NCBI RefSeq assembly: GCF_001701045.1
Contig: NZ_CP016757.1
Span: 3,188,219-3,252,218, forward strand
DNA from: Cloacibacillus porcorum
Lineage (GTDB): Bacteria > Synergistota > Synergistia > Synergistales > Synergistaceae
Length of the DNA: 64,000 nucleotides
Direction of reading: 5' to 3'
The notes beneath the pieces were generated by a model, which was given only the letters and a program-made list of their open reading frames with translations, did no database searches and was not told the DNA's origin. Below, one piece after another: positions 6,887 to 13,376 of the stretch. Both the position numbers and the translations under genes were made by a program. Each line of letters starts with the position of its first letter. The first letter of the stretch is position 1.

Positions 6887-9550
6887 TTGCCAAAGAGAAT
6901 GTTTTCCGACTCCCGCATGAAAAGATATGCCGGCTGCGGCGCGGAAGAGGTTTTCCGCGCCATACCGACGACGCCAGCGGGACTGCCGCAGGAGCGGGTG
7001 GAGGCGATGCGCGCGAAGTACGGCGAAAACAGGCTCTCCAGCAGAAAAGACGATACCTTTCCGCACCGGCTGCGGCGGGCCTTCGTCGATCCCTTCACGA
7101 TGATCCTCTTCACGCTGGCGGTGATCTCTCTCATTACCGATGTGCTGCTGGCCTCTAATTTTACAAGAAATATCACGACGTCTCTGATAATCTGCGTCAT
7201 GATCCTCGTCAGCGGCGCCATTCGCCTCGTTCAGGAGACGAGGGCCAAGAGGGCCTCCGACCGTCTGGACCGCCTCATCCACACAAACGTCACCGTCAAA
7301 CGCGGCGGGGTCCTCGTGGATATCCCCGCGGAGAGGCTGGTGGTGGGAGACCTGGTGATGCTCTCCGCGGGCGGGCGGATACCGGCCGATCTGCGGCTGG
7401 TAAAGACGACGAACCTCTTTGTCTCGCAGGCCGCCATCACCGGAGAGAGCGCGATCCTCGAAAAGGAGAGCGCCCCCTGCCCCGACGCCGGGCGGACGCC
7501 CTTCACAAGATTGAAGAACCTCGCCTTCATGGCCTCCTCCGTGATCAGCGGCAGGGGCGAGGGCGTCGTTCTCGCGGTGGGACGGGATACGCTCTACGGA
7601 AATTTCGTCAGACCGGATTCCAAAAATTCCGACGCCTTTCAAAGGGGCGAAAATTCCGTCGCCTGGGTGCTGATACGCTTCATGGCCGTTCTGGTCCCCG
7701 CCGTATTTCTGGTCTCCGGCGTCGCGCGCGGCAGCTGGCTGGAATCCTTCGCCTTCGCCCTCTCCGTCGCCGTCGGGCTGACGCCGGAGATGCTGCCGCT
7801 GGTGATCAACGCCTGCCTCGCGAGGGGCAGCCTCTCCATGTCGCGGAAGCGGGCCATCGTTAAAAACATCGACGCCATGCAGGTCCTGGGAAGCATGGAC
7901 GTCCTCTGCATCGACAAGACCGGTACTCTGACACAGGAAAGCATCCTGCTGGAATACTATCTGGATATCCTCGGCGGCGAAAGCCCCGAAGCATTGGAGC
8001 TAGCCTATCTGAACAGTTTTCATCATTCCGGCCTCTCCAATCCCATCGACAGCGCGATACTGGCCTGCAGGACGATGCCCGACAGGGGCGGCCGCCTTGC
8101 GGAGCTGGCCGGGCTCTGCCGTAAAACTGACGAAATACCGTTTGACTACGAACGCAAATTCGCCAGTACGCTGGTCAGGACGCCGGAGAAGAGCCACCTG
8201 CTGATAGTAAAGGGCGACATCCAGCGGGTCTTTTCACGCTGCCGCTTCGTCGAATACCGCGGTGAGGCCATCCCCATAGGGGAAAACGGGGAGGGCAGCG
8301 TCTCCGCCATTGTGGACGAGATGCTGGAAGAGGGCATGAAGGTGATCGCCGTGGCGAAAAAGGAGCTCGGCGCTCAGGAGAGGCTCTCTCCCGCCGATGA
8401 AAATGATATGACCCTCGTGGGCTACCTCGCCTTTTTCGACGCGCCGAAGCGCTCCGCGGCGCAGTCCGTAGAGGATCTCAAACGGCTGCGCGTGACCCCG
8501 AAGGTCATGACCGGCGATAATTCGCAGACCGCCCTCTCCATCTGCCGCCGCGTGGGGCTGCCCGCCGCGGCGATGCTGACGGGCGCGCAGATCGGCGGCC
8601 TCTCGGATGAAGAGCTGCGCGCGGCGGTGAAAGAGACGGATATCTTCGCCGAGCTGACGCCGGGACAAAAGGTGCGTCTGCTCTCGGCGCTGCGGGAGAA
8701 CGGCCGGACGGCCGGCTTCTTAGGCGACGGCATGAACGATATCCCCGCCCTCAACGAGGCCGACGTGGGGATATCGGTGGACACCGCCGTAGACGCGGCT
8801 AAGGAGGCCGCCGACGTGATCCTGCTCGAAAAAGAGCTAAACATTCTCGGACAGGGCATCATGGAGGGACGCCGGACCTTCGTCAACATGCTCAAGTACA
8901 TCAAGATCACGGCGAGTTCCAACTTCGGCAACATCCTCTCCGTCGTCTGCGCCAGCGTGGCTCTGCCCTTCTTCCCGATGACGGCGATCCAGCTGCTGCT
9001 TTTGAACCTGCTTTACGATACGCTCTGCATCGTACTGCCGTGGGACAGCGTCGACGCCGAGGATACGGAGACACCCCGCGAGTGGTCGGGGAAGACGCTG
9101 AGCGGCTTCATGCTCTCCTTCGGGCCGATCAGTTCGATCTTCGACATCATGACATTCCTCTTCCTCTACTTCGTCCTCTGTCCGCGGCTGTGCGGCGGGC
9201 TGCTCTACACCCAGCTCGCGGACCCGGCGCTGAGGCTGCGTTACGCGGCGCTATTCCAGACGGGGTGGTTCCTGGAGTCCATGTGGACGCAGGTGCTGAT
9301 CCTTCACATGCTGCGCACGAAAAAGATCCCCTTCCTGCAAAGCCGGGCATCGGCCCCGGTCCTGCTGATAACGCTGCTGGGGATCGTCGTCTTCACCGGC
9401 CTGACGCTGACGCCGCTCGCGCATCCGCTTGGTCTGACGCGGCTGCCGCTCGAATATTTCGGCTTTCTGCTGCCGGTCGTCCTTCTTTATATGCTGCTGG
9501 TCAGTTTTGTAAAACGGCTGTACATCAGGCAGCACGGGGAATTAATCTAG
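6887..9550 (+). CDS. mgtA: Mg2+-importing P-type ATPase, MgtA/MgtB type, copy 1
   Basis: Inner-membrane P3B-type ATPase of 887 residues that drives Mg2+ into the cell. Visible motifs: actuator TGESAILEKE, phosphorylation site DKTGT with Asp343, hinge GDGMNDIPAL, and a C-terminal block of hydrophobic helices ending near RQHGELI, typical of MgtA. The start is TTG at 6887, chosen because GGAGGG ends six bases before it. It is followed after 18 bases by a winged-helix regulator, and a second mgtA lies 1.1 kb downstream. Long leader with a short ORF suggests control by Mg2+ availability. Family assignment is secure; substrate Mg2+ rather than Ni2+/Co2+ is the family default. Confidence 0.93.
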   Translation: MPKRMFSDSRMKRYAGCGAEEVFRAIPTTPAGLPQERVEAMRAKYGENRLSSRKDDTFPHRLRRAFVDPFTMILFTLAVISLITDVLLASNFTRNITTSLIICVMILVSGAIRLVQETRAKRASDRLDRLIHTNVTVKRGGVLVDIPAERLVVGDLVMLSAGGRIPADLRLVKTTNLFVSQAAITGESAILEKESAPCPDAGRTPFTRLKNLAFMASSVISGRGEGVVLAVGRDTLYGNFVRPDSKNSDAFQRGENSVAWVLIRFMAVLVPAVFLVSGVARGSWLESFAFALSVAVGLTPEMLPLVINACLARGSLSMSRKRAIVKNIDAMQVLGSMDVLCIDKTGTLTQESILLEYYLDILGGESPEALELAYLNSFHHSGLSNPIDSAILACRTMPDRGGRLAELAGLCRKTDEIPFDYERKFASTLVRTPEKSHLLIVKGDIQRVFSRCRFVEYRGEAIPIGENGEGSVSAIVDEMLEEGMKVIAVAKKELGAQERLSPADENDMTLVGYLAFFDAPKRSAAQSVEDLKRLRVTPKVMTGDNSQTALSICRRVGLPAAAMLTGAQIGGLSDEELRAAVKETDIFAELTPGQKVRLLSALRENGRTAGFLGDGMNDIPALNEADVGISVDTAVDAAKEAADVILLEKELNILGQGIMEGRRTFVNMLKYIKITASSNFGNILSVVCASVALPFFPMTAIQLLLLNLLYDTLCIVLPWDSVDAEDTETPREWSGKTLSGFMLSFGPISSIFDIMTFLFLYFVLCPRLCGGLLYTQLADPALRLRYAALFQTGWFLESMWTQVLILHMLRTKKIPFLQSRASAPVLLITLLGIVVFTGLTLTPLAHPLGLTRLPLEYFGFLLPVVLLYMLLVSFVKRLYIRQHGELI

Positions 9551-9568: not shown

Positions 9569-10072
9569 TTGAAAAAGAACATCCACTTCATATCACTGGA
9601 TTCCATTCTCGCCGAATGGCTCCGCGACAGGCTGGAACAGGAACCTCCGCAGAGCGCCTACGCGAAGGGGCTGCTTGCCGGGCTCCGGGAGCTTCTCAAC
9701 GACGAGGCCTCTACGCTGGTGCTCGGCGTCGCCGGCAGCAGGGGCAACCTGTCAGATACCGCCGACGACGGTATTTACGCGGGAGAGCTCTCAATCCACC
9801 CTAAGAGCAGAAAGGTACTGCGGCAGGGCAGGGAGATCAGCCTGACGCCGAAGGAATTCGACATCCTCTACCTCCTCGCGCAAAACCGCGGCGAGGTCTT
9901 TACCAAAGAGCAGATCTACCGCGCCGTTTGGGACGGAGATTTTCTCCTCGCCGACAGCAACATCATGGCCTTTATACGCAAGCTGAGAAAGAAGATCGAA
10001 CCGAACCCCGACGCGCCGGAATATATACTCACCATCTGGGGGATCGGCTACAAATTCAACGACCAATTATAG
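9569..10072 (+). CDS. Winged-helix transcriptional regulator without a canonical receiver
   Basis: 167 residues. The C-terminal 95 residues form an OmpR/PhoB-type DNA-binding domain: LTPKEFDILYLLAQNRGEVF, then the recognition helix region SNIMAFIRKLRKKIE and the wing YILTIWGIGYKF. The N-terminal 70 residues show no conserved Asp/Lys phosphorylation pocket, so the receiver is missing or degenerate. It starts with TTG at 9569 behind GGAGGG and follows mgtA by 18 bases, so it is probably in the same transcript and ended by the terminator at 10077. No histidine kinase is nearby. A phosphorylation-independent regulator of the Mg2+ locus is the natural guess, unproven. Confidence 0.85.
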   Translation: MKKNIHFISLDSILAEWLRDRLEQEPPQSAYAKGLLAGLRELLNDEASTLVLGVAGSRGNLSDTADDGIYAGELSIHPKSRKVLRQGREISLTPKEFDILYLLAQNRGEVFTKEQIYRAVWDGDFLLADSNIMAFIRKLRKKIEPNPDAPEYILTIWGIGYKFNDQL

Positions 10073-10108: not shown

Positions 10109-10153
10109 TCTACTTTCTTGCCGAATCGCAAGAAAATCGCAAGATTTCAGCCA

Positions 10154-10182
10154 TTGGACAGAGGGACGGCGGCGGCTATACT
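10154..10182 (+). promoter_or_regulatory. Promoter for the second mgtA leader
   Basis: TTGGAC (10154-10159), 17-base spacer, TATACT (10177-10182). Transcription from about 10189 would give a leader of roughly 440 bases before mgtA copy 2, including the MEPD short ORF at 10301. Confidence 0.55.
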
Positions 10183-10300
10183 GGCGGTACGACAGAGAGA
10201 CAAGCGCGCGGCAAGCCGCGGGCCGCCCTATTATTTGTTGTGCGCCGCCGCAGACGGCGCCGCAAACCACCAACCGAAAACGGAGAAGGGAGTGAAGCAG

Positions 10301-10420
10301 ATGGAACCCGACAGTTTCGCAGGACAAAGTAAACAGGACCAAGGGCAAAGTCACCGACAGGCGAACGCGGCTGATTTACCGGAACCGGCGAAACGCGGGC
10401 TGCCGCTTCACCGCCGTTAA
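10301..10420 (+). CDS. Putative MgtL-like leader ORF starting MEPD (39 aa)
   Basis: Thirty-nine codons, ATG to TAA, with the ribosome site AAGGGAG about 9 bases upstream. The peptide begins MEPDSFAGQS and ends KRGLPLHRR. The enterobacterial mgtL leader peptide begins MEPDP and ends in basic residues; there, an acidic/proline-rich start destabilises ribosomes at low Mg2+ and so switches on mgtA. Here the ORF lies between a promoter and a structured segment (10466-10527) ahead of mgtA copy 2, the same architecture. The four-residue match could be chance, and the second proline of EPDP is replaced by Ser. A leader role is inference; translation looks likely. Confidence 0.55.
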   Translation: MEPDSFAGQSKQDQGQSHRQANAADLPEPAKRGLPLHRR

Positions 10421-10628
10421 ACTCCGCCCAAATCCTGCTTCCCACCGCAAAAACAGCTGATCATACGCATCGCCCCGTTATGGGCAAGGCTACGCCTGTC
10501 CATAACGGGGACGGCACCTCTGATGCGCGTACGAACCGTGCGAAACTAAAGATTTCAGCCGTTCGCAGCCGGTCAGCGAAAGAGGCGCGCCGAATCACAG
10601 ACCGGCGCCTCGTCAGGAGGTATGGAAA
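10421..10628 (+). other. Structured leader segment before mgtA copy 2
   Basis: CCCCGTTATGG (10473-10483) pairs perfectly with CCATAACGGGG (10500-10510) around a 16-base loop, inside an outer stem CGCATC (10466-10471) / GATGCG (10522-10527). A second GC-rich dyad, AGGCGC with GCGCCT, lies near 10585-10612, close to the AGGAGG ribosome site of mgtA. The loop sequence beginning GGGCAAGGC shares TGGGCAAG with the leader of mgtA copy 1 (about 6593-6600). It matches no riboswitch class known to me; a Mg2+- or translation-coupled attenuator is the inference. Confidence 0.45.
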
Positions 10629-13376
10629 ATGAAAAAGAAAAACACCACAATACAGACCGCCGAGCAGGCGGCGCGCAGAGAGCAGATCAACGAGCGCCTC
10701 CGCTTCGCCGCGGCCGCGCCCATAAACGACGTCTTATGGAAATATAATTCTTCGTTTGGCGGCCTCTCGGAGGTACAGGTCGAGAAAAACCGCCAGCGTT
10801 ACGGCGCCAACAAAGTGACGCGCAAAAGGAAAAAATCACTGGCACAGCGGCTGGCGGGAGCCTTTATCAATCCCTTTACGGCGATCCTGCTCTGCCTTGC
10901 CGCGGTCTCCGCCGTGACCGACATCCTGATGCCGGTCATGCAGGGTATGCCGGAGGAGGCGGACGTGCTCACGGTCGTCATCATTATGACGATGGTCGGC
11001 ATTTCGGGCATTCTGCGCTTCGTGCAGGAATCGCGCTCCGGCGACGCCGCGGAGAGGCTGCTTGCGATGATCACGGTCACCTGCACCGTCGACAGGCACG
11101 ACTGGAAAAGACACGAGATACCGCTTGAAGAGGCGGTGGCCGGAGACATCATCCGCCTCTCCGCCGGCGATATGGTGCCCGCGGACGCGAGGCTCATCGA
11201 GGCAAAGGACCTCTTCATCAGCCAGTCCGCGCTGACGGGGGAGAGTGACCTGATAGAAAAGAGCGCCGAAGGCGTCCCCAAGGCCGGCGACGCCCTCACC
11301 GACTACGGCAATATCGTCTTTATGGGCAGCAACGTCATCAGCGGCAGCGCCACAGCGGTGGTCGTCGCCGTGGGAGACGACAGCCTCTTTGGCTCGATGG
11401 CCTCCGCCGTCGCGGAGGAGGCGGTGGAGACCAGCTTCTCCAAAGGCGTCAACTCCGTCTCCTGGGTGCTGATCCGCTTCATGATGGTCATGGTGCCGGT
11501 GGTCTTCTTCATCAACGGCTTTACCAAGGGCAACTGGGTGCAGGCCTTCCTCTTCGCCATCTCCGTCGCCGTCGGGCTGACGCCGGAGATGCTGCCGATG
11601 ATCGTCACCACCTGCCTCGCCAAAGGCGCCGTCTCGATGTCGAAGAAAAAGACGGTCGTCAAGAACCTCAACTCCATCCAGAACTTCGGCGCGATCGACA
11701 TACTCTGCACCGACAAGACGGGAACCCTGACACAGGACCAGGTCGTCCTGGAATATCATATGAACGTCATGGGAGAGGAGGACGCCCGCGTGCTCCGCCA
11801 CGCCTATCTGAACAGTTACTTCCAGTCCGGCTATAAAAACCTGATGGACCTGGCGATTATCAGAAAGACAGAGGAAGAGGAGGCGGAAAACCCCCGCCTT
11901 ACGGACCTCTCCGACGCCTATGTGAAGGTTGACGAAGTTCCCTTTGACTTCACCCGCCGCCTCTCCACCGTCGTCAGCGATAAAAACGGCAAGACACAGA
12001 TGGTGACGAAGGGCGCGGTCGAGGAGATGCTCTCTATCTGCGCCTACGTGGAATATGACGGCAAGATCGAGCCGCTGAGCGAATCCCTCAAGCAAAAGGT
12101 GCTGAAGACCGTCGACCGCCTCAACGCGGACGGCATGCGCGTCGTCGCCCTCGCGCAGAAGACCAATCCCTCCCCCGTCGGCGCCTTCGGCGTCAAGGAC
12201 GAGTGCGATATGGTACTGCTGGGATATCTGGCCTTCCTCGATCCGCCGAAGGAGTCGGCGAAAGAGGCCATCAAAGCGCTCGGCGACCACGGGGTCGCCG
12301 TCAAGATACTGACCGGCGACAACGAAAAGGTGGCCCGCTGCGTCTGCCGCCACGTCGGGCTACCCGTTGAGAGGATACTTCTGGGCGGCGACATTGACCG
12401 TCTGGACGAGGAAAAACTCATCAAGGCCGCGGAGGAGACGGCAGTCTTCGCGAAACTTTCGCCGGAGCAGAAGGCGCGCGTCGTGAGCGCGCTGCGGAGC
12501 GGCGGCCACAGCGTGGGCTTCATGGGCGACGGTATCAACGACGCGGCGGCGATGAAGTCCTCGGACATCGGAATATCAGTCGATACGGCGGTGGACATCG
12601 CCAAAGAATCGGCGGACATCATCCTGCTGGAAAAGGACCTCTCGGTACTTGAAGAGGGCATCGTCGAGGGGCGCAAAACCTACGCGAACATGATCAAATA
12701 TATCAAGATGACCGCCTCCTCGAACTTCGGCAACATGTTCTCCGTGCTGGCGGCCTCGGCGCTGCTCCCCTTCCTGCCGATGATGAGCGTGCAGCTGATC
12801 TTCCTGAACCTGATCTACGACCTCTCCTGCACGGCGATCCCCTGGGACAACGTGGACAGGGAGTACCTTGCCGTTCCCAAAAAGTGGGACGCCTCCTCGG
12901 TCGGCAGCTTCATGCTCTGGCTCGGACCGACCAGCTCGATCTTTGACTGGACGACCTATGCGTTCATGTATTTCGTACTCTGCCCGCTCTTCGTCTCTCA
13001 GGGAATCCTCTTCAACGACCTGCCCGCCCATTTTTCCGGCGCGGAGCTGGCCGGGGTCCAGGCGGCCTACATCGCGCTCTTCCAGGCGGGATGGTTTGTG
13101 GAATCCATGTGGAGCCAGACGCTGGTGATCCATATGATCCGCACGCCGAAGCTGCCCTTCATACAGAGCCACGCCTCGGCTCCCGTGACGCTGATCACCT
13201 TCACGGGCATCGTGGCGCTGACGGTCATTCCCTTCACGCCCTTCGGAACGATGCTGGGATTTGTGCCGCTCCCCGCGATGTACTTCGCCTACCTGATCCC
13301 CTGCATCCTGCTCTACATGGCGCTGGCGACCAGCATCAAAAAGGCCTACGTGCGGCATTACGGCGAACTGCTGTAG
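10629..13376 (+). CDS. mgtA: Mg2+-importing P-type ATPase, MgtA/MgtB type, copy 2
   Basis: 915 residues, paralogous to the gene at 6887 and closer to the usual MgtA length. Motifs: [15 protein letters not shown] with Asp362, [10 protein letters not shown], and a C-terminus ending VRHYGELL. The start is ATG at 10629 with AGGAGG about 7 bases before it. It is followed 18 bases later by a small membrane protein gene with its own GGAGG. Two adjacent mgtA genes with different leaders suggest response to different Mg2+ thresholds or signals, as in Salmonella with mgtA and mgtB; this is inference. Paralogy and function are secure. Confidence 0.94.

Follow-up and report, generated by a model that had tools for sequence, protein, structure and literature searches.

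We propose that the short open reading frame (ORF) at 10301-10420 of the window, the whole 64,000-nucleotide stretch of DNA analysed here, is likely a regulatory leader peptide gene of the Mg2+ transporter gene mgtA, and that it belongs to a family widespread in Clostridia whose members would destabilise the translating ribosome when Mg2+ is low. The acidic start of the leader is conserved in relatives and linked to mgtA, it is under selection at the level of the peptide, and in relatives with compact leaders RNA folding predicts a switch at the Shine-Dalgarno (SD) sequence of mgtA.

Layout of the mgtA locus

The window comes from a 3.59-Mb genome in one contig (G000) and carries two Mg2+ P-type ATPase genes in tandem (6887-9550 and 10629-13376), between which lie a winged-helix gene, tandem repeats, a promoter and the leader ORF. 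Direct reading confirmed the order given in the original prediction, namely a promoter, a 39-codon ORF running from MEPD to LHRR, an 11-bp hairpin within an outer stem, and mgtA. The features of the locus are as follows:

9569-10072, + strand: orphan winged-helix DNA-binding gene, 167 aa, OmpR/VanR-type (PF00486 only)
10125-10143, + strand: tandem ATCGCAAG repeats, 11 bp apart, immediately 5' of the -35 box (read from the sequence)
10155-10182, + strand: sigma-70-like promoter, TGGACA-16-TATACT (10 of 12 matches)
10286-10292, + strand: SD of the leader ORF, AAGGGAG (read from the sequence)
10301-10420, + strand: leader ORF MEPDSFAGQSKQDQGQSHRQANAADLPEPAKRGLPLHRR, ATG start, 39 aa, MEPD...LHRR (direct reading; M[DE]x[DE] start conserved in relatives)
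10417-10476, + strand: C-rich, G-poor stretch (25 C, 7 G) directly 3' of the leader stop codon, candidate Rho-binding (rut) site
10466-10471/10522-10527, + strand: outer stem CGCATC/GATGCG enclosing the 11-bp hairpin (read from the sequence)
10473-10483/10500-10510, + strand: 11-bp perfect hairpin CCCCGTTATGG/CCATAACGGGG (read from the sequence; folding)
10582-10588/10605-10611, + strand: stem GAGGCGC/GCGCCTC (read from the sequence)
10615-10620, + strand: mgtA SD, AGGAGG (read from the sequence)
10629-13376, + strand: second Mg2+-importing P-type ATPase gene, MgtA/MgtB type (best profiles NF011702/PRK15122, 1150.9 bits, and TIGR01524, 1094.9 bits)

The leader ORF starts 328 nt and ends 208 nt upstream of the second ATPase gene, which is probably the target that the leader regulates. 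In the leader peptide, the early acids E2 and D4 flank P3, its only proline at the alternating positions 3, 5, 7 and 9 of the MgtL type.

Promoter-like sites numbered 2 in the 1.2 kb scanned, against 0.4 in shuffled sequences. The winged-helix gene also precedes mgtA in G001, a genome of the same genus, and in Clostridia such as L046, L048 and L062, and its product, in which a domain profile search matched PF00486 and no receiver domain, is likely an activator of the leader promoter. The repeat, in the form ATCGCAAG(N)3ATCGCAAG, stands before the promoter in G001 and at many clostridial loci too, and the tandem ATCGCAAG pair is the probable operator. G001 and many Clostridia have both the winged-helix gene and the repeat pair, and there a third copy, CTTGCGAT in inverted orientation, often lies close to the -10 box.

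The predicted fold of the leader RNA is more stable than that of 97 out of 100 dinucleotide shuffles (z -2.4). The hairpin at 10473-10510 was ruled out as a terminator, there being no U-run 3' of it, and the large hairpin at 10466-10530 between leader and mgtA was found only in this genome among those examined. An M-box riboswitch was rejected as well: no Rfam family, the M-box included, reached the cut-off on the leader of the window or at 14 related loci.

Conservation of the acidic start at mgtA

Relatives of the second mgtA gene were taken as the best 80 of 528 in the genome collection, and further mgtA genes came from searches of Synergistota, Clostridia, Lachnospiraceae, a second clostridial order, Lacrimispora and the wider phylum, for a total of 241 mgtA starts placed by tblastn after de-duplication. 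ATG ORFs with a good SD were then counted between -450 and -40 of mgtA, with 186 regions, mostly from Clostridia, belonging to the mgtA type of the window. Among 153 such SD-led ORFs upstream of this mgtA type, 100 start with M[DE] and 51 with M[DE]x[DE], in genomes that are related and not independent samples. Control ORFs from these loci carried the M[DE]x[DE] start in 0/59 cases on the reverse strand, 0/90 at -900 to -450 and 2/46 within mgtA, that is 2/195 (~1%) overall; an earlier, stricter count gave 41/103 against 0/138 in controls. An M[DE] leader is present in 92 of the 186 regions, leaving about half without one, and the acidic-start leaders are spread over many families. Judged against these controls, the MEPD start is not a product of chance, and the ORF is very probably a genuine leader of this acidic-start mgtA family.

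The clostridial start was also written as a DNA pattern and run on 38 genomes, with the backward pattern as a control; it matched in 17 of them and always at the mgtA leader, while the backward control gave 0 matches. Two other searches found little. A search with the leader DNA in 61 relatives returned, apart from the leader itself, short chance-level matches only, since conservation of the leader RNA is lacking even between the two congeners, and scanning for M[DE]P[DE] exactly yielded few loci because residue 3 is S in most relatives.

The dominant clostridial leaders start MDSDGSPRR, MDSEGSPRR, MDPDGSPRR or similarly, follow SDs of the GAGGTGA type and lie 103-128 nt (mostly ~112) before mgtA; of the alternating prolines most have P7 only, and the proline of the acidic start is conserved only in part. 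Within Synergistota, G001 has the SD GTGAGGTGAAACAG followed by MDPDGGTRLSGQGT (MDPDG start) 120 nt before mgtA, and G005, from another Synergistaceae genus, has MDVDSSGINPDG (MDVDS start) at -193. At the mgtA genes most closely related to that of the window, the leaders begin MESDTGSG (L257) and MESGNSEG (L046), both in an AAACAG/AAGCAG ATGGAA context as in the window, the latter lacking the second early acid (MESG), and a further group (L261-L267) starts MDADGSSG. In other leaders the acidic core is displaced to later in the ORF (METGSKYGPDPDGRN, METGSQGSPDPDGQQ, MESGSKRSPEPDGRH, MEPGSRRSADPDGRH), and many leaders stop at differing sites or run into mgtA. Conservation of the MEPD start in relatives, a check set by the original prediction, is thus borne out by the MDPDG start in the same genus, the MDVDS start in another Synergistaceae genus and many Clostridia, whereas the same check on the hairpins had the opposite outcome, those of the window being without counterparts.

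Other features were seen near mgtA in these genomes. A second mgtA branch (L160, L201, L268-L274 and G159, which is L034/L129) has leaders of the form MDS[NC]PRSQ...FKPQYE ~200 nt upstream with one early acid only, starting MDGNPQSRT in G159, and these may represent a further leader class. Just upstream of the leader lies a gene for a small membrane protein, DUF3784/2TM-like in Clostridia (L051, L053, L057, L086) and an unrelated 81-aa protein in G001 (L126), possibly a partner or regulator of the pump. A conserved block KVEIVAEYDSVGKPKNRVLEAIVGQ precedes mgtA in L055, L069, L085 and L091, and a related block KVEILAEYISFGKSKAAALEAIV lies upstream of the small membrane gene in G001; these blocks may be the tail of another protein.

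The pattern of variation indicates that what is conserved is the peptide. In the 38 compact leaders codon 4 is invariably GA[CTAG], its first two positions being invariant and its third taking all four bases. Where codons 2-9 differ between these leaders, the amino acid differs as well in 60% of cases in the reading frame, compared with 86% and 91% when either alternative frame is read, and across codons 10-17 the in-frame value is 93%; we conclude from this that selection acts on a short N-terminal peptide ending at about codon 9. Residues beyond it are free to vary, including KRGLPLHRR at the C-terminus of the window peptide, which had been put forward as a feature of the leader and is not conserved in relatives.

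These data bear on two readings in which the ORF would have no role in the window or at all. In one, the conserved block would be an RNA hairpin, GGACT...AGTCC, around the start codon, with the ORF incidental. GGACU and AGUCC are indeed able to pair around codons 2-6 in many leaders, and three leaders carry the paired variant GGATT/AATCC, but it is the third codon positions that carry the variation, most changes in the reading frame are silent or exchange D and E, codon 4 varies as GAC, GAT, GAA and GAG, displaced forms retain DPDG and not the hairpin position, and the block is always SD-led, so that we regard this reading as highly improbable. In the other, the ORF of the window would be a decayed or chance remnant and mgtA would be regulated only by the two-repeat operator and its activator, in keeping with a window sequence that past codon 4 is unlike any relative and with several clostridial mgtA genes that have the same promoter directly 5' and no leader (L048). 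Against this stand the intact SD, start and early acids of the window ORF, the rarity of SD-led M[DE]x[DE] starts in control ORFs given above, and a 39-codon frame that stays open; we consider a remnant unlikely, and we favour a functional leader peptide whose N-terminus is what matters.

Predicted sensing mechanism and regulatory output

By analogy with the enterobacterial leaders, we infer a ribosome drop-off through which the leader would respond to Mg2+, and we think this mode of sensing probable. The early acids E2 and D4 would make the translating ribosome prone to drop off at low Mg2+, the ribosome itself being the sensor. Drop-off at codons 2-5 would allow the downstream leader RNA to fold freely and switch mgtA on, and at high Mg2+ the ribosome would run through, block this fold and leave mgtA off.

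For the compact leaders the output is most likely translational. Their 3' part contains CUUGCCUC, which is complementary to the mgtA SD region GAGGUAAG, and in 35 leaders 88% of the anti-SD:SD cells are paired, compared with at most 60% when the alignment is slid by 1-3 columns. Another possible partner of CUUGCCUC is the AGGCAA-type segment of codons 9-13, so that this segment and the mgtA SD would compete for the shared anti-SD and an early drop-off would free the SD. We modelled this competition by folding with a 29-nt ribosome footprint, taking the mean openness of the mgtA SD as the readout and dinucleotide shuffles as the control. In the 38 compact leaders the predicted mean openness was 0.32 without a ribosome, 0.447 with the P site at codon 3 and 0.221 with the P site at codon 9, and the difference between codons 3 and 9 (0.225) compares with -0.081 to -0.007 in 12 shuffle sets. 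The model therefore predicts that the mgtA SD becomes open when the ribosome is held up or drops off at the acidic codons, and closed when the ribosome moves on. Covariation adds little here because the SD cannot vary: the anti-SD:SD stem has no two-sided changes, the SD being fixed, and the ON stem of the compact leaders has them in 3/6 pairs, near the shuffle level.

The leader of the window is longer, and folding shows no compact-type SD switch either in it or in the other long leaders; the difference in SD openness between an early and a later ribosome is 0.065 in the window, a value reached by 6/25 shuffles. Its output would more likely be Rho-dependent termination at the C-rich stretch 3' of the ORF, as in E. 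coli mgtL, where drop-off at EPDP in low Mg2+ hides the Rho terminator (PMC11282234). The stretch at 10417-10476 is the strongest C-rich, G-poor one of the leader, with a C excess over G that is reached by 0.04% of 60-nt windows on both strands of the 64 kb; for comparison, the best such 60-nt window of E. coli mgtL has 22 C and 10 G and starts inside the mgtL ORF. Given this stretch, a rho gene in the genome and the E. coli precedent, we infer a Rho step as the better guess for the window, a suggestion that we make tentatively; in the folding model the opening of the stretch did not depend on ribosome position.

Alternatively, the window might follow the purely translational route of Salmonella mgtQ, an 8-codon ORF whose Asp2 and Glu5 promote mgtB translation via pairing 2:3 versus 1:2 and 3:4 (PMC8092293). 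Early drop-off would then let upstream RNA capture CCTC (10608-10611) and free the SD, with Rho uninvolved. CCTC, in the 3' arm of the stem at 10582-10611, is a possible alternative partner for the mgtA SD, so that this stem would hold the anti-SD; predicted SD openness in one folding frame is 0.32-0.33 at codons 1-3 versus 0.17-0.18 later, and compact relatives clearly match the mgtQ design. However, the effect in the window is within the shuffle range, the folding link between the stem and leader translation being weak and non-significant, and 328 nt and a large hairpin separate the leader from mgtA, which leads us to rate this route as rather unlikely. A different kind of signal is conceivable as well, in that the leader might respond through its Pro, Arg and Ser codons to charged tRNA or to EF-P/EttA-type factors instead of Mg2+, thereby coupling mgtA to translation capacity. 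The SPRR just behind the acidic core of clostridial-type leaders would suit such a role, and enterobacterial mgtL responds to EF-P too, via its prolines (PMC6460261), but P7 and R8-R9 are missing in many leaders, that of the window included, while the early acids stay, and we hold this signal to be improbable. Mg2+ sensing at the acidic codons thus remains our preferred reading, with Rho as the provisional output in the window.

Origin of the leader and relation to known systems

The original prediction had regarded the leader as either convergent or ancient in Synergistota, and this simple choice is not supported by the mgtA tree, which points to a likely transfer from Lachnospiraceae groups. 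The tree covers 115 ATPases; in it the protein of the window shares a branch with Lachnospiraceae L046 and L063 (support 95) and the G001 protein falls in a different Lachnospiraceae group (99), with G002 and G005 elsewhere; because the window and G001 mgtA genes lie in different groups, the cassette most likely came by transfer. Mapping leader presence on this tree needs about 23 changes, and repeated transfer with leader loss or replacement would fit better than one old Synergistota trait. The window leader and enterobacterial mgtL match only in their first 4 residues, a stretch too short to separate descent from convergence.

An MgtL-like Mg2+ leader outside the enterics, as first proposed, is the best reading of a conserved, peptide-level acidic start at mgtA, although the hairpins and the C-terminus named with it are not part of what is conserved. 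MgtL of E. coli and Salmonella resembles the window in having an SD-led ORF before mgtA, an M[DE]PD start, a C-rich stretch near the ORF and an encoded rho. Beyond the start there is no sequence relation, Pro 5, 7 and 9 are absent in the window, the ORFs have 17 versus 39 codons, and the regulator is PhoP in the one case and the orphan winged-helix protein in the other. With Salmonella MgtQ, from the mgtC-mgtB intergenic region, the window shares early acids and an MgtB-like transporter (best profile PRK15122), and the compact clostridial leaders share a predicted RNA of four segments, where segment 1, once occupied, would leave 2 to pair with 3 and thereby free the transporter SD. The clostridial MDSDGSPRR start and its RNA are, however, unrelated to mgtQ in sequence and do not lie between mgtC and mgtB, and the long leader of the window has no visible switch. 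In ermC-type translational attenuators, likewise, the position of the leader ribosome selects SD-hiding or SD-freeing pairings; their trigger is drug-induced stalling, whereas here it would be drop-off at acids in low Mg2+. M-box and other Mg2+ riboswitches also act in the 5' leaders of Mg2+ transporter genes but differ from this leader, which has no Rfam match.

Our literature survey, which covered 5.39 million open-access papers, turned up MgtL and MgtQ in enterics and an MgtQ-like ORF in Brucella, but none in Clostridia or Synergistota, nor the strings MDSDGSP, MDSEGSP or MDPDGSP. Mg2+ leader peptides are thus known in enterics, and the clostridial/Synergistota family is new with respect to Rfam and this literature. 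We give about even chances to the broader view that a large class of Mg2+-sensing leader peptides, with the ribosome as sensor, controls mgtA in Clostridia and, by transfer, in Synergistota, built on a short, portable cassette of acidic residues, D[SP]DG or [DE]PD, placed at codons 2-5 or 9-12 and combined with differing outputs, an SD switch in compact leaders and Rho termination or another mechanism in long ones. If so, its presence in Clostridia would make ribosome drop-off at low Mg2+ a general sensing principle, its dozens of natural variants would offer material for mapping what destabilises nascent chains, and it would account for the tuning of this Mg2+ pump in gut anaerobes, whose mgtA genes showed no M-box here.
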